From positions 1-51,217 of the forward strand of contig CASFTM010000014.1 of NCBI GenBank assembly GCA_949297775.1: 51,217 nt of DNA, written 5' to 3'. This DNA is from an uncultured bacterium. GTDB lineage: Bacteria > Elusimicrobiota > Elusimicrobia > Elusimicrobiales > Elusimicrobiaceae. Positions 13,596-32,117 of the stretch are shown piece by piece; position 1 is the first letter of the stretch, and every line of letters starts with the position of its first letter. A program made the position numbers and the translations under genes. The notes below the pieces were generated by a model. That model saw only the letters and a list, made by a program, of their open reading frames with translations, did no database searches and was not told the origin of the DNA.

Positions 13596-14885
13596 ATGTC
13601 CATCTTCAAAACCGCCCAGAGCGGGGAAGTAAAAACCCAACAGCTTAATAAAGAAGGCTGCCGCGTGACGCTGTCCGTGGAAGCCGCCCCGGAACTGGTA
13701 ACCAAATGCTTTCAAAATGCCGCCGTGCAGGTTCAATCCCGTGCGCAGATGCAAGGCTTCCGCGTCGGAAAAGTACCGTTGGACCTGGTAAAACAAAATT
13801 TTGCCGGACATATTAAAGAACGTGCGTTGGATTTAACGGTAAAAGCCGCCATTAATTCCGCCATTACCGATGCCAAATTGGACGCCGTTGCCGTACCTAC
13901 GCTGACCAAAGCCGATTTTGTAAACTTTGCCGAAGGCAAACCGTTTACGTTCGAAATCGCGGTGGACGTTGCCCCGGAATTTGACGTAAAAGATTACAAA
14001 GGCATTGAAATCGCCAAAAAGCCCGAAACCGCCACCGAACAGGACGTGACCGACAATTTAAACCGCGTGCTGGACGCCAACGCCCGCCTGGAAAGCGCCG
14101 CCGAAGGCTCCGTGATTGACGACAAATGCTATGCTGTCGTGCATTACACGGGCAAACGCAACGGGAAAGACGACTATAAATTAAGCGCCGACAGCGAACT
14201 GATTGATATGGCTGCCCCGCAGACAATGCCCGGCCTGGCTGAAGGCATTAAAGGCCTGAAAAAAGGCGACGTGAAAGATATTGAAACCAAAGAAGGGGAA
14301 AATGTTATTTCCTATCACGTAACGGTGGATGATATCAAAAACAAAATCGTGCCCGCGTTGGACGATTCTTTCGCCAAAGATATGGGCTTTGAAACTTTGG
14401 ACGCTTTAAAAGCCAAAGTGAAAGAAAGCCTGGACGAAGAAGCCAAACAAAACGCCCGCCGCGACGAAATCGCCCAGATTGAAAACCACCTGGTCAAAAT
14501 GAATAATTTTGATTTGCCCCAGAGCTTGGTGGAAGAATATACCGAATCTTCCTTAAATAACTTCGTGCGCAGTATGACCCAGCTCAAGCCCGAACAGCTG
14601 ACGGCGGACCAGAAAAAAGCGTTTGAAGAACGCATCCGCCCCAGCGTGGAAAAGGACTTGCGCATCGGCTACATTGTGCACGCCATCGCCAAGAAAGAAA
14701 ACCTGGAAGCCACCGAGGCCGACTGGAAAGCCGAATTGGATAAGAGCATTGCCGCCAATTCCCAAAACAAAGAAGACGAAAAGAAAATTAAAGCCTTCTT
14801 TGACGAACGCAAAGCGCACATTTTGGCTACGCTTAGCGAACGCAAAGTCTTTGATTTCATCAAAGAACAAGCAAAATACAAATAA
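13596..14885 (+). CDS. tig: Trigger factor
   Basis: A 429-aa ribosome-associated chaperone and prolyl isomerase that binds nascent chains at the exit tunnel. The N-terminal ribosome-binding signature appears as GFRVGKVPLDLV near residue 55. The FKBP-like domain follows at about 150-240 (YAVVHYTGKRNGKDD, MPGLAEGIKGLKKGD), then the long helical C-terminal arms (FDLPQSLVEEYTESSLNNF). AGGAG precedes ATG 13596; an in-frame extension upstream would run into tRNA-Leu. clpP and clpX, its common neighbours, are absent here. Probably cotranscribed with the two tRNAs. Confidence 0.96.
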   Translation: MSIFKTAQSGEVKTQQLNKEGCRVTLSVEAAPELVTKCFQNAAVQVQSRAQMQGFRVGKVPLDLVKQNFAGHIKERALDLTVKAAINSAITDAKLDAVAVPTLTKADFVNFAEGKPFTFEIAVDVAPEFDVKDYKGIEIAKKPETATEQDVTDNLNRVLDANARLESAAEGSVIDDKCYAVVHYTGKRNGKDDYKLSADSELIDMAAPQTMPGLAEGIKGLKKGDVKDIETKEGENVISYHVTVDDIKNKIVPALDDSFAKDMGFETLDALKAKVKESLDEEAKQNARRDEIAQIENHLVKMNNFDLPQSLVEEYTESSLNNFVRSMTQLKPEQLTADQKKAFEERIRPSVEKDLRIGYIVHAIAKKENLEATEADWKAELDKSIAANSQNKEDEKKIKAFFDERKAHILATLSERKVFDFIKEQAKYK

Positions 14886-14902
14886 ATTTGCCGGAACGAA
14901 AA

Positions 14903-14934
14903 CCCCGTCCGTTTTGCGGGCGGGGCGTTTCGTC
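14903..14934 (+). terminator. Terminator of tig
   Basis: A 9-bp G/C-rich stem with one G-T pair (14903-14911 with 14917-14925) and a weak T-tract (CGTTTCGT). Confidence 0.55.
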
Positions 14935-15004
14935 CCCGGACGAGCCGTTTTCCGCGTCGTATGAACACACGGCATATGGCCTGGACAAACGGTTTTAACC
15001 TCAG

Positions 15005-15034
15005 GGAGCGGGTAATTTTGCCCGCTCCTTTTTT
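15005..15034 (+). terminator. Second terminator-type hairpin after tig
   Basis: An 8-bp perfect stem GGAGCGGG/CCCGCTCC (15005-15012 with 15021-15028), then T6. Better than the one at 14903 and probably the main end point. Confidence 0.8.
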
Positions 15035-15177
15035 GTTGACGCACGGTCTTGCCGGTGGAAATGGGGATTGCCCGGTTGAGAGTTGTTGTGCCGGGGCGTG
15101 GAAGGAGAAAATTTGTATAGCTCCGCTGGTCGGGTTGGCGGGTCTTGGCAGCCGCCCCTGGGGGGCATTTCTGTAGG

Positions 15178-15253
15178 GCGCGGCATTTCTAAAATAGTGT
15201 GGCCCCATTAGTCGTGTTAACGGGCATAGAGCGGGGAGCCCAGCTTTTGGGCC
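15178..15253 (+). repeat. Dispersed stem-loop repeat, copy A
   Basis: Begins GCGCGGCATTTCTAAAA, continues AGTGTGG...GTGTTAACGGGCATAGAG, and ends in a GCCCA/TGGGC hairpin with a GCTTT loop. Shares these blocks in order with the units at 22928-23270 and 31965-32040. Confidence 0.85.
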
Positions 15254-15278
15254 CTTTTTCTGGCACCAGAAAAAGGGC
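15251..15278. repeat. 28-bp near-perfect palindrome
   Basis: 13-bp perfect arms (15251-15263 with 15266-15278) around a two-base centre. It directly abuts the hairpin of repeat copy A. Confidence 0.9.
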
Positions 15279-15289
15279 GAAAAAGAGTG

Positions 15290-15418
15290 CCGGCCCAAGG
15301 CCCCATAAAAATCACTTTCAAGCGGGAAATTTTATAACTCGCGCGGGTTCCCCGCGCTCAGACAATAAAATTTCTTCTCCGCTTGGAAGGCTTTTTATAG
15401 ACGGGGCAAAAGGGCCGG
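15290..15418. repeat. 129-nt long imperfect hairpin element
   Basis: Outer arms CCGGCCC (15290-15296) and GGGCCGG (15412-15418) pair perfectly. Inside, GCCCC/GGGGC, ATAAAAA/TTTTTAT, TTCAAGCGG/CCGCTTGGAA and GAAATTTTAT/ATAAAATTTC pair in register with small bulges, capped by GCGCGGG/CCCGCGC. It could be a miniature inverted-repeat element or a structured RNA. No target-site duplication recognised. Confidence 0.7.
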
Positions 15419-15423
15419 ATAAA

Positions 15424-15471
15424 CGGCAACAGCAACAGCAACAGCATAAGCGTAAGCGGAAACGGAAACGG
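15424..15471 (+). repeat. Degenerate hexanucleotide tandem repeat
   Basis: Period-six tract: AGCAAC repeated, drifting through AGCATA, AGCGTA and AGCGGA to AACGGA and AACGGC. About eight units. No gene spans it convincingly. Confidence 0.8.
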
Positions 15472-15485
15472 CTTCCTTTTGAATA

Positions 15486-15553
15486 GTGCGGCATTTCTAA
15501 AACGTGTGGCCCAGCTAGTCGCGTTAACGGGCATAGCGTGCCTGCCCCGGCAA
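15486..15553 (+). repeat. Dispersed stem-loop repeat, copy B
   Basis: Starts GTGCGGCATTTCTAAAACGTGTGGC, contains GCGTTAACGGGCATAG, and ends in a short TGCC/GGCA hairpin. Tandem with copy C. Confidence 0.75.
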
Positions 15554-15558
15554 GGGGG

Positions 15559-15613
15559 GTGGCTTAAACTAATCGTGCTAACGGGCATAGAAAGGGGAGG
15601 CCAAGCTTTGGCC
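15559..15613 (+). repeat. Dispersed stem-loop repeat, copy C (5'-truncated)
   Basis: Lacks the GCGGCATT block and begins at GTGGCTTAAACTAATCGTG. Ends in a perfect GGCCAA-GCT-TTGGCC hairpin (15599-15613), followed after about nine bases by T12-GATA and then the pilin leader. The tract after the hairpin matches that after unit 4 of the 22928 array. Confidence 0.8.
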
Positions 15614-15622
15614 CTTGACGCG

Positions 15623-15634
15623 TTTTTTTTTTTT
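15623..15634 (+). repeat. T12 homopolymer tract upstream of pilin start
   Basis: Twelve T residues followed by GATA, 14 bases before the ATG at 15649. The same T12-GATA occurs at 23272-23287, and the window itself opens with T5-GATA in the equivalent position. Confidence 0.9.
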
Positions 15635-15670
15635 GATAAATTTTGCGTATGAGCAAAATTTATCAAAAAA
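15629..15670. repeat. Palindrome with pilin start codon in its loop, copy 2
   Basis: An 18-bp perfect stem (15629-15646 with 15653-15670) around a GTATGA loop that contains the ATG at 15649. Same sequence as 1-41. Confidence 0.95.
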
Positions 15671-15720
15671 CCCACCCGGCGGGGAAAAACGCCGGATTTA
15701 CGCTAATAGAGCTGTTAGTG
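15630..15720 (+). repeat. 91-bp direct repeat, copy 2 (pilin leader cassette)
   Basis: Identical to 1-91. Identity ends exactly at the Val codon where the hydrophobic helix of the other gene continues but that of this gene is missing. Confidence 0.95.
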
Positions 15721-16116
15721 ATGGCGGTTATGAAGTCCCGCTTGTCCACGATGCGCACGGTGCTTGAAAACCTGCACAGAGCCGAAGAAGTTTTTTATAT
15801 GGCTAACGGGTATTACGAAGCGAATACGGACAAATTGGATTTTGATTATAAAGGCTCCTGCACGGGAACGGATGTTTTAAAATGTGGCAATTTCTTTTAC
15901 GTGGACATCATAAACGGCAGCGGTGTAGTGACGGATCCGGGCAAATTGCATATCAAAGCTTCTTATTGCGTGGATACGGAAACCCTTTCCGAATGTTCGC
16001 CTGATTTTTCATACTATGTGTGGTTTGATAATTCTTCCAACCCTGGATTACGGACTTGCATAGGAAATAATGAGAAAGGCAGAAAATTCTGTAATATTAT
16101 AAACGCAGAAAATTAA
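15649..16116 (+). CDS. Chimeric prepilin lacking the hydrophobic helix
   Basis: A 155-aa protein with the same 16-residue leader and FTLIELLV start as the gene at 20-538, but the chain then jumps to MAVMKSRLSTMRTV. Against the usual pilin order, about 17 residues (VVLIIGILAAVALPQYT in the sister gene) are missing in frame, which removes most of the transmembrane/assembly helix. The rest of the gene is an intact pilin head with TC-x10-C near the C-terminus. It has its own terminator. As read, it could be processed but hardly anchored in the membrane or packed in a filament. It may be a decayed pilin, a silent donor cassette, a secreted head domain, or an assembly error across the repeat. Confidence 0.8.
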   Translation: MSKIYQKTHPAGKNAGFTLIELLVMAVMKSRLSTMRTVLENLHRAEEVFYMANGYYEANTDKLDFDYKGSCTGTDVLKCGNFFYVDIINGSGVVTDPGKLHIKASYCVDTETLSECSPDFSYYVWFDNSSNPGLRTCIGNNEKGRKFCNIINAEN

Positions 16117-16124
16117 AGTTTGCC

Positions 16125-16148
16125 GCCCCGGTTTTCCGGGGCTTTTTT
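16125..16148 (+). terminator. Terminator of the chimeric pilin
   Basis: 7-bp stem GCCCCGG/CCGGGGC, TTTT loop, T6 tail. Confidence 0.9.
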
Positions 16149-16339
16149 ATGTAACTACTTCCGCTTTTGCCGAAGCGGCTGCACCTTGCACTGGGTGGGC
16201 AGGCCTAGCTAAGGAGCGGCCTGCCCACCGGGCAGTGCGGCGGCCTCTTCTGCAACGGCTATCCCCAAAAGGCGCGGCGCAGTTTCCGGCTGCGCTGAGC
16301 CGCCGGGGGGCAGAGGGGGTTTTTACAGGCCCAATTTGG

Positions 16340-22927: not shown

Positions 22928-23275
22928 GGGCGACATTTCCAAAACAGTGTGGCTCAATTAATCGTGTTAACGGGTGAAGGGAAGGGAGCACCGGCTCGGT
23001 GCCGTTGCGCAAGGGCGCGGCATTATGGGAACAGTGTGGATCAATGAATCGTGTTAACGGGTGAAGGGAAGGGAGCACCGGCTCGGTGCTGTTGCGCAAG
23101 GACGCGGCATTCCTAAACTAGTGTGACCCAATTAATCGTGTTAACGGGTGAAGAGAAGGGATCACCGGCTCGGTGCCGTTGCGCAAGGGCGCGGCATTCC
23201 AAAACAGTGTGGCTCAATGAATCGTGTTAACGGGTGAAGGAAAGGGAGCCCAGGCTCTGGGCCTTGATTTGTTTT
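22928..23275 (+). repeat. Tandem array of four 87-bp stem-loop repeats
   Basis: Units start at 22928, 23015, 23102 and 23189, exactly 87 bp apart. Each has GCGCGGCATT-like, CAGTGTGG, AATCGTGTTAACGGGTGAAG and AAGGGAGC blocks, a hairpin, and (units 1-3) GTTGCGCAAGG. Hairpins: units 1 and 2 GCACCG-GCT-CGGTGC; unit 3 the same with its outer pair lost; unit 4 GCCCAG-GCT-CTGGGC. Unit 4 ends instead in CTTGATTTG and T12-GATA. Nothing else is visible in the gap between etfA and the pilin at 23370 apart from this array and a promoter. There are no unique spacers, so it is not a CRISPR array. Confidence 0.95.
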
Positions 23276-23283
23276 TTTTTTTT
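23272..23283 (+). repeat. T12 homopolymer tract
   Basis: Twelve T followed by GATA after the last repeat unit, 86 bp before the pilin start and about 19 bp before its candidate -35. Confidence 0.9.
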
Positions 23284-23301
23284 GATACACTGGTGCTGGC
23301 G

Positions 23302-23330
23302 TTGATTTTTGGGCTGTTAATTATTAGACT
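23302..23330 (+). promoter_or_regulatory. Candidate pilin promoter
   Basis: TTGATT at 23302-23307, 17-bp spacer, TAGACT at 23325-23330. Predicted leader of about 33 bases to the ATG at 23370. Confidence 0.4.
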
Positions 23331-23369: not shown

Positions 23370-23858
23370 ATGAAAAAGGGTTTTACTTTGATAGAATTAT
23401 TGGTTGTCGTACTAATTATCGGTATTTTGTCGGCGGTGGCGCTGCCGCAGTATACCCGGGCGGTTAATAAATCCCGTATGGCAACGTTGGTGCCCCAGCT
23501 TAAATCATTGCTTGATGCTGGAGAAGTGTATGTGTTGGCAAATTCTCTTTCAGCTGGGCAAGGAGATATAGTCATTCCTTTGGACAGTTTGGATATTGAA
23601 TTGGATGATACTTCATTTGACTTTAAAGGGGGAAAAGAGTGCAGCTTTTCCTTACGGCTTCCGGCAAGTAGTGCGACGGTGGGGCTTGTGTCCATGTGCT
23701 CAGGAAGCGCCGGCATATTTGGGATAACAGGTACCGGCGTGCTGTTCTGTGCGCCATCAGACACTGTTTGCAAAGAATATGGTTTTACTAAAGTAAGCTC
23801 ATTAACTGCCGGCGGGGATTTTGCCAGTATAGTTACCGGTACGGTTTACACCATGTAA
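23370..23858 (+). CDS. Orphan type IV prepilin 5
   Basis: A 162-aa prepilin: leader MKKG, mature FTLIELLVVVLIIGILSAVALPQY with Glu5, then TRAVNKSRMATLVPQLKSLL. The head is Ser/Gly-rich with FKGGKECSFSLRLPASS and ends FC-x6-C-KEYGFTKV. AAGGAG lies ten bases before the ATG. It follows the 87-bp array and converges on another prepilin on the minus strand. Confidence 0.93.
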   Translation: MKKGFTLIELLVVVLIIGILSAVALPQYTRAVNKSRMATLVPQLKSLLDAGEVYVLANSLSAGQGDIVIPLDSLDIELDDTSFDFKGGKECSFSLRLPASSATVGLVSMCSGSAGIFGITGTGVLFCAPSDTVCKEYGFTKVSSLTAGGDFASIVTGTVYTM

Positions 23859-26017: not shown

Positions 26018-26767
26018 ATGAATTCCCCTATGCATACGCTGGCAGGCGTCATTACCGAAAAATTCATCGCGGCGGATCCGGCCGCGGCGGCCCGCGCGCT
26101 GGAAACATTGGCTACGCACGAAGTGCTGTTGCTGGTGGGTTCTTTAAAAGCGCAGACGCTGGTGGCGTGCCTGAACCCGATGGACCCGGCAAAAGCGGCG
26201 GCGGTGCTGCGGCGGCTGCCGTTGCGGCAGGCGTCGTACGTGCTGGCGCATTTGGACGTGCCGCAGGCCGCACGGCTGATGAAAGAGTTTTCCGCCCCGT
26301 ACCGCCAGCGCATAGCCGCCGCGCTGGAACCGGCGTTTGTGGCATTGCTGGAGCAGGCGGGCTCGTACGCGCCGGGCAGTGTGGGCCTGTTAATGAGCAC
26401 GGACGTGGTTACCGTGCGCACGGAAAGCAAATTGGCCGCCTTGATTGAACGTTTGAAAGCGTTGCCGCGCAAAAAATTGCCCGCGGCGTGTTTTGTAACC
26501 GCCAAAGACGGAGAACTCAAAGGCGTTATCCGCACGGCGGAACTGGCGTTTTATAACGCGCAGTCGGTATGCGGTTCCATTATGAGCCCCGCTGATACGC
26601 TCCGCCCTCAAGCGGACGCCGAAACCGCCCGCCAGGCGTTTTTGAAAGCGCAGGCGGATGTGTTGGCGGTAACGGATGAAAAAAACATTTTGCTGGGCGT
26701 TTTGCTCAAGCAAATGCTTCCACCACCGGCGGATAAAAAATCTTTTTGGAAGCGGCTGGCGCAATAA
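26018..26767 (+). CDS. MgtE cytoplasmic-domain protein without channel
   Basis: A 249-aa soluble protein. Residues about 15-105 match the superhelical MgtE N domain (DPAKAAAVLRRLPLRQASYVLAHLD repeats the motif seen in MgtE and FliG-like proteins). Residues about 118-235 look like a CBS pair (GLLMSTDVVTVRTESKLAAL, CGSIMSPADTL, VTDEKNILLGVLL). The five-helix magnesium channel that normally follows is absent, and the chain stops at KSFWKRLAQ. It may be a stand-alone Mg/nucleotide sensor or a partner of a channel encoded elsewhere. Divergent from the AlbA_2 gene across an AT-rich 95-bp gap. Confidence 0.75.
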   Translation: MNSPMHTLAGVITEKFIAADPAAAARALETLATHEVLLLVGSLKAQTLVACLNPMDPAKAAAVLRRLPLRQASYVLAHLDVPQAARLMKEFSAPYRQRIAAALEPAFVALLEQAGSYAPGSVGLLMSTDVVTVRTESKLAALIERLKALPRKKLPAACFVTAKDGELKGVIRTAELAFYNAQSVCGSIMSPADTLRPQADAETARQAFLKAQADVLAVTDEKNILLGVLLKQMLPPPADKKSFWKRLAQ

Positions 26768-26789
26768 CGCAAAGTTTTTTGGAAAGAAA

Positions 26790-26816
26790 AACCCCGGTAT
26801 ACGACCGGGGTTTTTT
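26790..26816. terminator. Bidirectional terminator
   Basis: CCCCGGT/ACCGGGG stem (26792-26798 with 26804-26810) with A-run on the left and T6 on the right, between convergent genes. Confidence 0.9.
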
Positions 26817-26828
26817 ACAGTACAAAAA

Positions 26829-27668
26829 CTAATTGATTTTGCTGTGGGGGGGAATGTCGTGCGTGATCCATTTGTTGGCGCCGATAACGCTGCCTTTCCC
26901 GATGGTAATGTTGCCCAGGACGGTGGTTTCGGCATAGATGATTACGTCGTCCTCTATATTGGGGTGGCGTTTAATGCCCTTGACCGGGTTGCCTTGGGCG
27001 TCCAGCGGGAAGCTTTTGGCCCCCAGCGTAACGCCTTGATAGAGCTTTACGTTGGCGCCGATGACGCACGTTTCGCCGATTACTACGCCGGTGCCGTGGT
27101 CAATAAAAAAGCCGGGGCCGATAGACGCGCCGGGGTGGATGTCAATCCCGGTTAAATTGTGGGCGTACTCGGTAACGATGCGCGGAATTAAACGGACGCC
27201 TTTTTGGTGCAGATAGTGCGCCAAGCGCTGCAGCGTAACGGCGGTAACGCCCGGATAGCACAACAGCGGTTCAATGGGGTTGATGGCGGCGGGGTCTCCT
27301 TCGTAGGCGGCGTTTACGTCGCTTATCAGCAGGCGTTGGATGTCCGGCAGAGCACGGATAAAATCACAGGTGATGTCGTGCGCCTGCTTTTCGCAGCGGG
27401 CGCAGTCCTCTTTTTGCTGGCACATAAAGCAAAGGGATTTTAAAATTTGTTCTTCCAACCGTTCCGCCAGGGTGTCCAGCGTAAACTGCGGCGTTTCCCG
27501 GCCCGATTCCAAGGGGTACTGGTACAAAAAATCTTTTAGCGCGCAAAATATCGCCACCGTTTTGCGGGCGGAGGGAATAAACTTGGCCTTTTGAAAATAT
27601 TTTTTGTCAAAAGTGTTTTTCAGTTCTTCGGCGGTTTGGGAGAAATTTTCGCTCACGGGGCGCCTCAC
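26829..27668 (-). CDS. cysE: Serine O-acetyltransferase (EpsC/SrpH type)
   Basis: A 279-aa enzyme making O-acetyl-L-serine, the cysteine precursor. The N-terminal helical part ends ISDVNAAYEGDPAA; the left-handed beta-helix has GIDIHPGASIGPGFFIDHG, GVVIGETCVIGANVKLYQGVTLGAKSF and a C-terminal VIIYAETTVLGNITIG; the His of FIDHGTG and the IHPGA segment are catalytic. Unusual is C80-x2-C-x5-C-x2-C92 in the N-terminal region, a possible metal or Fe-S site. The start is GTG, overlapping the lptB stop by four bases; no in-frame ATG lies nearby. It is the last gene of the lipopolysaccharide-export operon. Confidence 0.9.
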   Translation of the reverse strand: MRRPVSENFSQTAEELKNTFDKKYFQKAKFIPSARKTVAIFCALKDFLYQYPLESGRETPQFTLDTLAERLEEQILKSLCFMCQQKEDCARCEKQAHDITCDFIRALPDIQRLLISDVNAAYEGDPAAINPIEPLLCYPGVTAVTLQRLAHYLHQKGVRLIPRIVTEYAHNLTGIDIHPGASIGPGFFIDHGTGVVIGETCVIGANVKLYQGVTLGAKSFPLDAQGNPVKGIKRHPNIEDDVIIYAETTVLGNITIGKGSVIGANKWITHDIPPHSKIN

Positions 27669-28384
27669 ATCTTGAAATCTTCACCCAAATACAAACGTCT
27701 TGCGTTAGGGTCGTTTAACAGGGTATTTTGGTCGCCTTCTACCAGGATTTTTCCGTCATAAATCAGGTAAGCGCGTTCGGTCAGCGGCAGGGTTTCGCGC
27801 ACGTTGTGGTCCGTAATCAACACGCCGATGCCTTTGTCCTTGAGTTTAAAAATCATATGGCGCAGGTCGGACACGGTAATCGGGTCAATCCCCACGAACG
27901 GTTCATCCAGCAGAATGATTTTGGGGTTGCTTATCATACAGCGCGCAATTTCCATACGGCGTTTTTCGCCGCCGGAGAGCGTCCAGGCTTTTTGCTTGGC
28001 CAGTTTGGTAAGGCCAAATTCGCTAAGCAGCGCGTCCACGCGGCGTTTTTGTTCCTGCTTGTTGTCCAAAATGCGTTCCAATACCGCCAGCAGGTTTTCT
28101 TCCACCGTCAGCCCTTTAAAAATGGTCGGTTCCTGCGCCAGATACCCCAGGCCGTGGCGGGCGCGTTCGTACATCGGCAGGGAGGTTACGTCGTCCCCGT
28201 CAATAAACACGCGGCCCTTGGTGGGGCTGATAAAACCCACCATCATATAGAAGGAAGTGGTTTTCCCGGCGCCGTTGGGGCCCAACAGCCCGACAATTTC
28301 GCCGGATTTGACGTGGATGTCCACCCCTTTTACGACCATACGGTCTTTATAAACTTTTACAATTTGTTCACTGCGAAGCTGCAT
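27665..28384 (-). CDS. lptB: LPS export ABC transporter ATPase LptB
   Basis: A 239-aa cytoplasmic ATPase of the LptB2FG complex that extracts lipopolysaccharide from the inner membrane. Walker A GPNGAGKT, Q-loop region GYLAQEPTIFKGLTVEEN, signature LSGGEKRR, Walker B IILLDEPFVGIDP and switch His in ITDHNVRETL are all present. The order kdsD-lptC-lptA-lptB matches other Gram-negatives. lptF and lptG are not in the window. Eight bases separate it from lptA. Confidence 0.97.
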   Translation of the reverse strand: MQLRSEQIVKVYKDRMVVKGVDIHVKSGEIVGLLGPNGAGKTTSFYMMVGFISPTKGRVFIDGDDVTSLPMYERARHGLGYLAQEPTIFKGLTVEENLLAVLERILDNKQEQKRRVDALLSEFGLTKLAKQKAWTLSGGEKRRMEIARCMISNPKIILLDEPFVGIDPITVSDLRHMIFKLKDKGIGVLITDHNVRETLPLTERAYLIYDGKILVEGDQNTLLNDPNARRLYLGEDFKM

Positions 28385-28392
28385 AAAAACCT

Positions 28393-29292
28393 CTAAAATT
28401 TATCGTTGATTTCCGCGTCGTTTAACTGCGGGGAAACCACCCACCCCTGCACTTTTCCGTTCAGTTCCACTTTGCGGCCTTCGTTGTCGGACTGTACTTC
28501 ATCCGCTATTATAGCAAATGTGCCCTGTTCGCTTGTGCCGCTTAAGAGCGGGCGGGAACCGGAAGCGGTGGAGCGGTTGTTCTCTCCATCGTAAATAATG
28601 GTGTTTGCCTCCAGCGTACGCCGGCTGTCGGACAGTTCCGCCCCGCCGGAAAGCGTTAGGTGGTTTTGACTTTGCTTGAAGGTGGCTTTTTGCGCTTTGA
28701 GCGTTTGCATGCCTTCGGGGGCGGGGCGTTCCACGCGCACGTCACCTTCCAAAATAAAAATTCCGTCCGCCAAATTGAAGTCAGCTTTTTTTGCGTATGC
28801 CGTTACGGAAGGCTGTTGCGCTTCCTGGTAAATCAGACGGATTTTGTTGTTTTTGGAAGCGGTTAAAACGCCTTTTTGGGTTTTGTAATTATAGCGGGCA
28901 TAGTCGGCGTACGCTTCGTACACCGGCTGGCCGGGTTCAGCCTGTTTGACGTAAACGCTGCCTTTGGCGGTAAAACGGTTTTGGGCCCGCTCGGAGAGGG
29001 CGTAGTCGGCGCGGAAGGTGTAGACGCCGTTATCGTAGGATACGTTGCCTTTGAATTCTTCCTGTTGTTTGTCTTTATAAATGACCCAGCTGTCGCTGGC
29101 AATCAGCCCGCCCAACACGGGGGGGAGCGTCATATCCTGCACTTTGCTTTTCAAGGAATTTTTGGCCACATCCAAGCGTTTTTTGGCGGGCGGAATTTTA
29201 ATTTCCGGCCCTTCTAGGCGCACGGTTTTGCAGCCGCTTAAAAAAGCGGACAAAAGTAAAAAAGCCGGAAGCAAAAAAGTAAATTTTTTCAT
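28393..29292 (-). CDS. lptA: LptA/OstA-like lipoprotein
   Basis: A 299-aa protein with a lipoprotein signal (lipobox LSGC, Cys21) and an OstA-type beta-jellyroll region at about 60-295 built of repeated short strands (KGNVSYDNGVYTFRAD, LEGDVRVERP, KAQKATFKQSQNHLTLSG, ADEVQSDNEGRKVELNGKVQG). LptA forms the periplasmic bridge for lipopolysaccharide. It is longer than Escherichia coli LptA and lipid-anchored, which is unusual for a soluble bridge; it may combine LptA function with membrane attachment. Start overlaps lptC stop by four bases. Confidence 0.8.
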   Translation of the reverse strand: MKKFTFLLPAFLLLSAFLSGCKTVRLEGPEIKIPPAKKRLDVAKNSLKSKVQDMTLPPVLGGLIASDSWVIYKDKQQEEFKGNVSYDNGVYTFRADYALSERAQNRFTAKGSVYVKQAEPGQPVYEAYADYARYNYKTQKGVLTASKNNKIRLIYQEAQQPSVTAYAKKADFNLADGIFILEGDVRVERPAPEGMQTLKAQKATFKQSQNHLTLSGGAELSDSRRTLEANTIIYDGENNRSTASGSRPLLSGTSEQGTFAIIADEVQSDNEGRKVELNGKVQGWVVSPQLNDAEINDKF

Positions 29293-29828
29293 AACGAAGG
29301 GCTCTTTAATTCGTTTGCGTCCGCGGGCAGGCGGGTGGTTTGTTTTTTGATTTCAATTTTGGTCAATTTGGAATCCGTTTCTATTCCGCCGCGCGCCGTT
29401 ACTTTGGCGCCGCCGCGGGTGACGACGGTTTTCCCGTCCGACCAAATGCGGTCTTTGTCCACGTCGTAGAAAAAGCGTTCCGCGGTAATGATTAAATTTT
29501 CGGTAAACGATTGTATTTTGGCGTTTCCTTCAATGGTAACCAGTTTGCTGGGGTAATCAAACGAGCCCGTTTTGCCGGTGACGGACGCGCTGTCCTGTCC
29601 GTTTTCTTTCAGCAGCAAATCCGGGTTTTTCAAAACGGCGCTTTGCAGGCTGGAAAAATCCACCGATTCGGCGCGCAGGATCCATTTTTTATGGCTGTCC
29701 TGCGACTCAAAGATAGACACATTCGTAGCCAGCTGCATACCGGCATCCTCGGCGGGGGAGAATTCTTTTTCTCCGCCGCAGGCGCACAGGCCGCATACCG
29801 CTAGCAAAAGGGCAATCGTTTTCCTCAT
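29289..29828 (-). CDS. lptC: LptC-family lipoprotein
   Basis: A 179-aa LPS-export component. A signal sequence ends in LCAC, a lipobox-like motif with Cys17, whereas classical LptC keeps an uncleaved transmembrane helix. The rest is a jellyroll with the family pattern WILRAESVDF, DYPSKLVTIEGNAKIQS and GKTVVTRGGAKVTARG. It overlaps kdsD upstream and lptA downstream by four bases each, so translation of all three is tightly linked. Confidence 0.85.
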   Translation of the reverse strand: MRKTIALLLAVCGLCACGGEKEFSPAEDAGMQLATNVSIFESQDSHKKWILRAESVDFSSLQSAVLKNPDLLLKENGQDSASVTGKTGSFDYPSKLVTIEGNAKIQSFTENLIITAERFFYDVDKDRIWSDGKTVVTRGGAKVTARGGIETDSKLTKIEIKKQTTRLPADANELKSPSL

Positions 29829-30826
29829 TTTTTATCCAGTAAAGCCAAAAATTCAATTAAATCTTTCTCGTCAATAATACCCACCACTTTGCCGGTTTTG
29901 TCCAACACGGGCAAATTGTCCACGTGCGTGGCGTGAATCATTTTGGCGGCTTCTATGGCGGGCAGGGTGTCCAAAATATGGTACGGGTTTTTGGTCATCA
30001 CTTCGGTAATATTTTTGTTTAACACATCCGTTCCGCTTTGCAGAATGCGGCGCAAATCACCGTCGGTAAAATACCCCAGCAAATGCCCCTTTTTGTCTAC
30101 AATGCTGGTGGCACCGGCGGCGCCGGTTTGCGTCATGACCAACAGCGCGTCCTGCACCGAGGCGCTCTCGCGCACGGTGGGGTTATTTTTGCCTTTGCGC
30201 ATGACGTCTTTTACCTGTTGGGTAAGCAGTTTGCCCAAAGAACCGCCGGGGTGAAAGACGGCAAAGTCGCGCTTTTCGAAATGTTTGATTTTCATCAGGC
30301 AAATAGCCAGCGCATCGCCCACGGCCAAAGTGGCGGTGGTGGAGGCGGTGGGAGCTAGGTTGTAGGGGCAGGCTTCGCGCTCAATGTGGATGGTGATGTG
30401 AATGTCCGACATCAGCGCCAGCTTGGATTTGTCGTGCCCGGTCATGGAAATAACGGTTAATTTGCGGCGTTCCAGCGAAGGGAGAATTTTGTTAATTTCT
30501 TCCGTCTGTCCGGAAAAAGAAATAGCCAAAATCACGTCGCCGGGGGTAATCATCCCCAAATCGCCGTGCAGCGCTTCCACCGGGTGCACAAAGAAAGACG
30601 GCGTGCCCGTGGAGGCCAAGGTGGCGGATATTTTCCGCCCAATGATGCCGCTTTTGCCGATGCCCAGCACCACCACGCGGCCTTTTGTTTTGGCGATCAC
30701 ATCCACCGCTTTTAAAAAATTTTCGTCAATGCTTTTTTTGCTCAGGGCCAACGCTTCGTGTTCTATTTCCAAAACGCGGCGGGCGATTTTTTTGACAGCT
30801 TCTTTGGAATAGGTTTTTTCAGTCAT
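29825..30826 (-). CDS. kdsD: Arabinose-5-phosphate isomerase KdsD
   Basis: A 333-aa enzyme converting ribulose 5-phosphate to arabinose 5-phosphate, first step to Kdo. The SIS domain (about 35-180) has GIGKSGIIGRKISATLASTG, LHGDLGMI and SFSGQTEE; two CBS motifs follow (VKDVMRKGKNNPTV and VTEVMTKN-like), ending LIEFLALLDKK. AGGTAA lies upstream inside the 60-aa gene. The phosphatase KdsC, often encoded next to KdsD, is missing from this operon. Confidence 0.96.
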   Translation of the reverse strand: MTEKTYSKEAVKKIARRVLEIEHEALALSKKSIDENFLKAVDVIAKTKGRVVVLGIGKSGIIGRKISATLASTGTPSFFVHPVEALHGDLGMITPGDVILAISFSGQTEEINKILPSLERRKLTVISMTGHDKSKLALMSDIHITIHIEREACPYNLAPTASTTATLAVGDALAICLMKIKHFEKRDFAVFHPGGSLGKLLTQQVKDVMRKGKNNPTVRESASVQDALLVMTQTGAAGATSIVDKKGHLLGYFTDGDLRRILQSGTDVLNKNITEVMTKNPYHILDTLPAIEAAKMIHATHVDNLPVLDKTGKVVGIIDEKDLIEFLALLDKK

Positions 30827-30830
30827 AAAG

Positions 30831-31013
30831 TTACCTGTTTGAGTGCAGCCAGGGGGCCGCTTCGGGCGCGGGCTGGCGTTTTTGATACGGCGCGGGCAGG
30901 CGGTCCGTTACGTACGCAAGCGCAAAATAAGCCGCCGTGCACGCCACCAACAGCGCGCCAAACAGTTTGGCGTGCCACAAAAGGGCGGGTTTCCAGGCGG
31001 GGGGTGTGGTCAT
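30831..31013 (-). CDS. Small single-span membrane protein in Kdo/Lpt operon
   Basis: A 60-aa protein with an N-terminal cytoplasmic stretch, one hydrophobic helix (LFGALLVACTAAYFALAYV) and a Pro-rich basic tail (APYQKRQPAPEAAP). Its ATG overlaps the kdsA stop by one base (TAATG), and kdsD starts five bases after its stop. That tight packing is the main evidence that it is real. I do not recognise the family. Possible roles: scaffold between Kdo enzymes and the membrane, or an Lpt accessory peptide. Confidence 0.65.
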   Translation of the reverse strand: MTTPPAWKPALLWHAKLFGALLVACTAAYFALAYVTDRLPAPYQKRQPAPEAAPWLHSNR

Positions 31014-31840
31014 TATTTAAATTTTTTTACTACTTGGTCAATGGCGCATAATTGGCGCGCCATTTCGCCGGCCATTTTTAAATCCAGCGAGTTGGGCCCG
31101 TCGGAAAGGGCGTGGTCCGGGTCCGGGTGGGCTTCAAAAAACACACCCGCAATGCCCAGGGCCGTGGCGGCTTTGGCCAGCACCGGGGCCAACTGGCGGT
31201 TGCCGCCGGTGGCGGTGCCCAGTGCGCCGGGTTTTTGCACGGAGTGGGTGGCGTCAAAAATAACGGGATAGCCGAACTGCTTCATAATTTCCAGCGAGCG
31301 CATATCCACCACCAAATCGCCATAGCCAAAGCTGGCGCCGCGTTCCGTCAGTAAAATGTTGTGGTTCCCGCGCGATTCAATCTTTTTGATGACCTGTTCC
31401 ATCGCGCCCGGCGCCAAAAACTGGCCTTTTTTGACGTTAACGGCGCGGCCTGTATCGGCGCAGGCCAACACTAAGTCTGTCTGGCGGCACAGAAAGGCGG
31501 GGATTTGCAAAATGTCGGCTATCTGGGCCGCTTCTTCGGCTTGCCAGGGTTCGTGCACGTCCACTACCAGCGGCAGGCCCGTGACGGCTTTGGCTTTGGC
31601 TAAAATATCCAGCCCTTTGGCCAGCCCCGGGCCGCGGTAGGCGTCCACCGAGGTTCGGTTGGCTTTGTCAAAAGAGGCTTTCAAAATAAAAGGGTGTTTG
31701 GTTTTAGCTAAAATGGTTTTGAGCTTTTTTGCAGTGTCAATGTAATGCTTTTCGCTTTCAATGACGCAGGTGCCCGCCATAAAAGCCAAAGGCAGGCGGT
31801 TGGAAATTTTATAGTTGCCGATTTGAATGGTTTTTTGCAT
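31013..31840 (-). CDS. kdsA: Kdo-8-phosphate synthase KdsA
   Basis: A 275-aa aldolase that joins phosphoenolpyruvate and arabinose 5-phosphate. Family motifs: GTCVIES, FKASFDKANRTS (given as FILKASFDKANRTS), DVHEPWQAEEAA, RQTDLVLACADTG, FDATHSVQ and FFEAHPDPDHALSDGPN. The metal-binding Cys (AGTCVIES region) and the later His, Glu and Asp suggest the metal-dependent class, but this was not tested. Two ATGs are possible (31846 and 31840); the second sits exactly at the expected transcription start of a TATGAT element. First gene of the operon. Confidence 0.95.
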   Translation of the reverse strand: MQKTIQIGNYKISNRLPLAFMAGTCVIESEKHYIDTAKKLKTILAKTKHPFILKASFDKANRTSVDAYRGPGLAKGLDILAKAKAVTGLPLVVDVHEPWQAEEAAQIADILQIPAFLCRQTDLVLACADTGRAVNVKKGQFLAPGAMEQVIKKIESRGNHNILLTERGASFGYGDLVVDMRSLEIMKQFGYPVIFDATHSVQKPGALGTATGGNRQLAPVLAKAATALGIAGVFFEAHPDPDHALSDGPNSLDLKMAGEMARQLCAIDQVVKKFK

Positions 31841-31852
31841 ATACATATCATA
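31838..31852 (-). promoter_or_regulatory. -10 element fused to kdsA start; leaderless candidate
   Basis: TATGAT at 31852-31847 followed by ATGTATATG. Matches the TATAATTTGTATATG block at 16340-16354 at 13 of 15 positions. No Shine-Dalgarno and no clear -35. Confidence 0.4.
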
Positions 31853-31935
31853 GCAAATTTTGCCTGTTTTTCTATATAAGGTTGCGTGCGGGGGCAACAA
31901 GTACCAAAAACACCCGCCCCAAGGAGCCCCGGATC

Positions 31936-32055
31936 GGAGCCCAGGCTTGGGCTGTTGCGTAAGAGCGCGGCATTTCTAAAACAGTGTGGCTTAAACTAGT
32001 TGTGTTAACGGGCATAGAGAGGGGCGGGCAAGCTTTTGCCCCGGCTCGGTGCCCT
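31936..32055 (+). repeat. Dispersed stem-loop repeat, copy D with partial copies
   Basis: A 3' unit fragment (31936-31964: AGCCCA-GGCT-TGGGCT hairpin then GTTGCGTAAGAG), a full unit from 31965 (GCGCGGCATTTCTAAAACAG, GTGTTAACGGGCATAG, hairpin GGGCAA-GCTT-TTGCCC), then a fragment CGGCTCGGTGCC. It lies between the divergent kdsA and O-antigen-ligase-like genes, in the same orientation as the latter. Apart from this repeat I see nothing in 31901-32117. Confidence 0.85.
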
Positions 32056-32117
32056 CTTTTCTAAAACGTTTGAAAAAACTACAATATAACCGACTCTGTC
32101 TAAAATGAGGAAATTTT

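Follow-up and report, generated by a model that had tools for sequence, protein, structure and literature searches.

A covarying hairpin repeat in mosaics upstream of pilin genes in a clade of gut Elusimicrobiales

Pilin genes number between 22 and more than 110 in some members of one genus of Elusimicrobiales, and the literature searched offered no explanation for the origin or choice of such large pilin sets. A tandem array of hairpin-bearing units that precedes a pilin gene in the window (the whole 51,217-nucleotide stretch of DNA that was analysed) raises the question of what such a repeat is and how it relates to the genes that follow it. The window is contig C14 of the 32-contig, 1.69-Mb genome of a gut bacterium of this order (G000, 97% complete). 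The repeat marks exactly these pilin genes in one clade, and so provides a handle on turnover of the pilin repertoire. Its position before pilins, the orientation that it shares with replication and the paired changes in the arms of its hairpin suggest that the family is tied to the turnover of surface-protein genes.

The repeat unit and its hairpin

TRF calls the array at 22937-23257, with a period of 87 and 3.7 copies, in agreement with the tandem family that an earlier note, made from the sequence alone, had described; the spacing of exactly 87 bp given there holds for two intervals (87 and 87), and the third measures 86. All units lie on the + strand. Unit A1 (22937-23023) comprises the core, GGGA and a hairpin at 22988-23002 (GCACCG-GCT-CGGTGC), and unit A2 (23024-23110) has the hairpin GCACCG-GCT-CGGTGC at 23075-23089. 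The GCT-looped hairpins ascribed to the units are fully paired in A1, A2 and A4, but the outer pair is broken in A3 (23111-23197; hairpin at 23162-23176, TCACCG-GCT-CGGTGC). Unit A4 (23198-23263; hairpin at 23248-23262, GCCCAG-GCT-CTGGGC) is cut off at the P1 block (23264-23287, + strand, TTGATTTG-T12-GATA), a putative promoter with a 12-T spacer. A second promoter-like pair predicted from the sequence, P2 (TTGATT-17-TAGACT, 23302-23330, + strand), is present in a subset of these pilins. The type IV pilin-like gene 3' of the array (23370-23858, + strand) has an N_methyl motif.

The DNA examined in this genome consists of the stretches around pilins, repeats and integrases, together with control contigs. 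Whole-genome BLAST gave 48 matches to unit A; iterated nhmmer, applied to the flanks of the BLAST matches and of all 87 N_methyl pilins, gave at least 106 copies, and a covariance model at least 78. Of 61 genomes sampled from the genus, the covariance model detected copies in 16; the other 45 lack them. An exact scan of named genomes for the repeat core found matches in uncultured Elusimicrobiales MAGs and in two labelled uncultured bacterium. The unit of about 87 bp consists of a sequence-conserved, unstructured core, GGGA, and a hairpin of six base pairs with a three-nucleotide loop; outside the hairpin, sequence is conserved and structure is not. RNAalifold on 130 copies, for either strand, found no supported fold beyond the terminal hairpin, and a fold of the whole unit was therefore rejected. 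A coding origin was rejected by inspection because the variable positions lack codon spacing, and a weak match (E 0.0087) that fell within a reading frame in one relative was taken as chance.

The earlier note had proposed that pairing of the stem is kept while its sequence changes, and covariation across many copies and species bears this out. At a fixed ungapped offset from the core, without structural alignment, 78.8% of stem cells pair among 171 distinct copies, compared with 55.6% in column shuffles (maximum 59.9% in 1000 shuffles) and 33-54% in slid controls. In an alignment of 42 sequences, 89.7% of pairs are kept versus 67.9% when shuffled, two-sided changes occur at all six stem pairs, and the covariation score is 0.516 versus 0.189 shuffled, a value reached in 0 of 500 shuffles. 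Among these sequences, C-G and A-U occur 19 and 18 times at stem pair 5, and C-G and G-C occur 20 and 15 times at stem pair 2. Single-pair steps link the stem classes in a chain (GCACCG, GCCCCG, GCCCAG, GGCCAG, GGCCAA), with GGGGCG in addition. Where both arms could be placed in one of the six classes (72 copies), 68 copies have arms of matching class, and the other four combine one-step neighbours.

Selection on structure, which had been read from this covariation, is not established, because replication template switching can create multibase compensatory changes without selection (PMC8794818) and because hairpins pair equally well in orphan arrays and in pilin-linked ones (the fraction with a stem of six or more is 0.69 and 0.64, respectively). 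Selection and template switching are inseparable here as causes of the covariation, and upkeep of the hairpin by template switching alone is a serious rival. The repeat might accordingly be non-functional palindromic DNA, carried along by duplicating pilin units, whose complementarity is kept by template switching and gene conversion between the arms rather than by selection. In keeping with such passive carriage, pairing quality is similar in every downstream context (0.67-0.89) and does not depend on adjacency to P1, 45 of the 61 sampled genomes lack the repeat, and module F, an unrelated palindrome in these regions that forms a hairpin of about 120 nucleotides, covaries too. This account is possible but on the whole doubtful: conservation of the triloop is strong, with GCT in 40 of 71 well-paired copies and the inverted forms AGC or AGG in none of them, the GGGA foot (51 of the same 71) and the core are conserved in sequence, and DNA that spread freely would not keep so strictly to pilin promoters. 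Because one genome offers over 100 copies, along with orphans and empty sites, the family is well suited as a natural test of whether selection or a mutational mechanism produces covariation in short hairpins.

Mosaics before pilin genes and their orientation

When copies were mapped relative to pilin genes, as the earlier note had advised, 46 of 54 arrays were found to have a pilin directly downstream on the same strand. In three pilin-free contig stretches (58 kb in total), modules A, D, E, F, N and P are all absent. Arrays hold one to five copies, and some are orphans without a pilin. The usual order of modules is A(n)-D-F-N-A(n)-(E)-P1-pilin, in which D and F are longer palindromes than the A hairpin, and the same layout was found in two other species. 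One locus of a relative (L255, on contig C49 of genome G077) has two full repeat-promoter-pilin cassettes in tandem.

A second mosaic in the window begins with a dispersed A unit (15193-15256, + strand, hairpin type GCCCAG/TTGGGC). It continues with module D (15248-15275, the palindrome CCCTTTTTCTGG-CA-CCAGAAAAAGGG) and the covarying long hairpin of module F (15294-15415), both annotated without a strand, and with module N (15416-15497, + strand). Two further A units (15499-15552 and 15559-15613, + strand) follow, and the hairpin that the earlier note had reported at 15599-15613 is present there as GGCCAA-GCT-TTGGCC, with the loop GCT. Next come a P1 block (15615-15638, + strand, TTGACGCG-T12-GATA) and a dyad, TTTTTGATAAATTTTGCGTATGAGCAAAATTTATCAAAAA, around the pilin start codon (15630-15670, no strand assigned). 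The pilin-like gene itself (15649-16116, + strand) was missed by the N_methyl model; most of its N-terminal hydrophobic segment has been lost in frame (ELLV-MAVMKSR), and it is possibly a decaying pilin. The 91 bp at 15630-15720 are identical to positions 1-91, at a pilin locus with a different body, and the contig begins inside the latter.

The stems that had been listed at 31938-31953 (AGCCCA..TGGGCT, + strand) and near 32030 are also present, but their loops differ slightly from GCT. The first lies 5' of a lone A unit without a pilin (31980-32054, + strand, hairpin GGGCAA-GCTT-TTGCCC), upstream of a Wzy/TPR gene. A 5.4-kb block (26704-32073) with an edge at this lone unit is present in G000, G011 and G023 and absent in G034 and G028.

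The consensus of P1 is TTGAYTYG-T12-GATA, of which the genome has 55 exact copies and none of the reversed-pattern control; all copies that were mapped lie before pilins. By its sequence, P1 is probably a promoter with a 16-bp spacer that is mostly poly-T. The T tract has 12 residues in 88 of 111 instances and 6 to 16 in the others, and slippage in this spacer between the -35 and -10 elements is a plausible source of phase variation for dozens of pilins. The block occurs before pilins across the genus, including repeat-free relatives (loci L102-L117). At about 40 pilins P1 leads into a dyad, perfect or nearly so, that surrounds the start codon, and a Shine-Dalgarno sequence is absent; the dyad at 15630-15670 is perfect over about 18 bp, as at about 40 other pilins, and its arms covary in one relative (L104, GATACATTTTG..CAAAATGTATC). 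It may be an operator or a mark of leaderless mRNAs.

Regulation in cis would make the A arrays an operator, enhancer or insulator for the downstream T12 promoter, with the hairpin blocking read-through or being recognised by a regulator. The arrays are always upstream and co-oriented, the core is as highly conserved as a binding site would be, and the last hairpin abuts the -35-like TTGA of P1 in about 50 copies. Such a role is nevertheless rather unlikely, given that P1 occurs by itself both in species lacking the repeat and before several pilins here, that arrays vary in copy number or stand as orphans, that hairpin quality is independent of adjacency to P1, and that a gap of 8-9 nucleotides from hairpin to T tract would make a poor intrinsic terminator.

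Covariation of the kind seen in RNA structures is present in modules A and F, and the mosaic might be transcribed as a structured non-coding RNA or a long mRNA leader. The consensus fold of A is a short hairpin only, however, array composition differs between loci, and Rfam provides no match (at the gathering score the matches in the window are two tRNAs, and the arrays give only sub-threshold chance matches). The functional RNA that the earlier note had considered became less likely because the hairpin lies 5' of the putative promoter P1 and the core has no other conserved fold, and an RNA role of either kind is now extremely improbable.

All 106 units, distributed over all 20 contigs, lie on the G-over-C (leading) strand, as do 33 of 39 loci in relatives, the exceptions having near-zero skew. 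Pilins without the repeat are also biased, slightly more weakly (30 of 34 on the leading strand), so the bias may belong, in part or entirely, to pilin genes as such. Genes upstream of arrays are oriented at random (26 the same way, 25 opposite). Insertion of terminator-derived elements was rejected, because co-orientation of upstream genes in 26 of 51 cases indicates no link to upstream terminators.

The strict orientation with respect to replication is compatible with the recombination target proposed in the earlier note, but no matching enzyme was found. Together with the covarying hairpin and its conserved 5' foot, the orientation might denote a site similar to REP or attC, which a dedicated enzyme would recognise as folded single-stranded DNA on one replication strand; enzymes of the IS200/REP type act on hairpins of the lagging-strand template (PMC6006769). 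A site of this type is very unlikely, since Y1_Tnp is absent from the repeat-rich genomes G000, G011, G020 and G023, no integrase reaches the IntI cut-off, attC boxes are absent, and the bias of repeat-less pilins may account for the orientation. It is likewise improbable that the hairpin modules are joints where an enzyme so far not associated with such a role acts on folded single strands of one replication strand, cutting and rejoining whole pilin transcription units. If true, these joints would constitute an integron-like system for shuffling pilin genes, built from hairpins that are variable but always complementary.

Turnover of pilin loci among relatives

Presence or absence of units at orthologous sites differs among relatives, as read from consensus MAGs. 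Among close relatives (about 84% DNA identity), the 3' side of etfA is occupied by another pilin with another repeat set, by a repeat-free pilin, or by repeats without a pilin. On the 3' side of the trigger-factor gene, the 1.28-kb stretch A-D-F-N-A-A-P1-pilin-terminator (15036-16315, + strand) is missing at the orthologous site in six relatives, where 59-250 bp remain. Only its left edge could be placed, at the T-run of a terminator, and the target-site duplication typical of MITEs was not seen; comparison with the relatives suggests that it is a unit that was inserted or lost. The neighbouring stretch 14883-15035, 3' of the trigger-factor gene, is 86-94% conserved in most relatives, ends in a terminator and has no Rfam match; possibly it encodes a small RNA.

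Distant loci share tracts of 91-100 bp with 100% identity, and of the 64 contig ends at least 12 lie in or beside modules, as expected of recently exchanged or duplicated DNA. Flanks and pilin bodies are largely decoupled: locus pairs with flanks that are 76-83% similar have pilin bodies mostly at background similarity (0.62-0.66, compared with a mean of 0.63), including those with the closest flanks (0.83). The correlation of flank and body similarity is weak but significant (Mantel r = 0.16), and part of the flank pattern is therefore plain co-duplication. Units are more similar within arrays (0.648) than between arrays (0.592), as expected of local duplication.

The tentatively preferred reading, put at somewhat less than an even chance, is that unit A is a module of a lineage-specific mosaic that provides shared homology for exchange and turnover of pilin units. 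The mosaic would flank, on their upstream side, the pilin transcription units of a dispersed family, and its many near-identical, co-oriented blocks of repeat and promoter would supply homology by which pilin units could be duplicated, replaced or deleted and their 5' ends homogenised while the bodies diverge. Hairpins that can fold in single strands may favour breaks or template switches at the replication fork. This reading is favoured by the arrays beside pilins, their absence from pilin-free stretches and the recurrence of the layout in two other species, and also by the variation at the etfA and 1.28-kb sites, the identical tracts, the decoupling of flanks from bodies and the analogy with neisserial arrays described below. 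From these patterns we infer both recombination as their cause and participation of the hairpin in it. Against shared homology, searches for Y1_Tnp and Tyr recombinases yielded no recombinase or transposase that could be linked with the repeat, the repeat is dispensable for pilin expansion, and recombination is deduced by comparison across lineages.

The repeat is not required, since most species of the genus have pilins and the promoter block without it. All 61 genomes have many pilins, and repeat-free species have just as many as the others; hence the repeat is not needed for pilin expansion, and the idea that high pilin number is its consequence was rejected. The simplest reading is that the repeat was added later, in some lineages of the genus.

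Comparison with known repeat systems

The repeat family appears to be undescribed in the literature searched, which held nothing relevant on pilin repeats in Elusimicrobia. The earlier note knew of no matching family, and comparison with Rfam, attC/IntI, RAYT/REP and dRS3 left that statement intact. Integron attC sites resemble the repeat in keeping structure more than sequence, and integrons in having genes with a recurrent flanking repeat on one strand, but here there is no cassette array, and the units are dispersed over the chromosome upstream of the gene. The attC boxes R'' (RYYYAAC) and R' (GTTRRRY) occur together in none of 130 units, and the six Tyr recombinases of G000 score far below the TIGR02249 cut-off of 265 bits (the best, an XerC-like protein, has 146), so an integron was rejected. 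REP/BIME elements with their TnpA-REP (RAYT) are likewise high-copy intergenic hairpins with a conserved 5' foot, whereas here the foot is GGGA rather than GT[AG]G (neither GTAG nor GTGG is among the feet listed for the 71 well-paired copies) and the units are direct rather than inverted. A link to RAYT was rejected because no module was found at any of six Y1 loci from other species.

BOX elements of Streptococcus pneumoniae are modular, with a tandem inner module and stable stem-loops, are restricted to the species and have been proposed to affect expression of neighbouring genes (PMC3049150). Compared by description only, the present family is similarly a modular repeat with a tandem unit and stem-loops. 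In the pneumococcus, repeats occupy scattered intergenic positions, about 61-63% of them on the leading strand (PMC3049150), in contrast to the exclusively leading-strand units of this genome, nearly all of which precede pilins; the two families are not known to share any sequence.

For the NIME arrays that surround meningococcal pilS, a role in promoting exchange of surface genes has been proposed (PMC3898611). Like these neisserial arrays of dRS3 and RS elements, the mosaics described here are intergenic arrays of unit repeats joined by short palindromes around pilin loci, and they too lie near pilin or surface genes. They differ in that the 20-bp dRS3 (ATTCCC-N8-GGGAAT) is found in none of 130 representative units, the stem sequence itself changes in a compensated manner, all arrays lie upstream in a strictly shared orientation, and no target of a phage integrase is known. 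By analogy, NIME and BOX are the nearest in kind to this family, and the closest counterpart would be the NIME arrays around pilS, for which the same role has been proposed.
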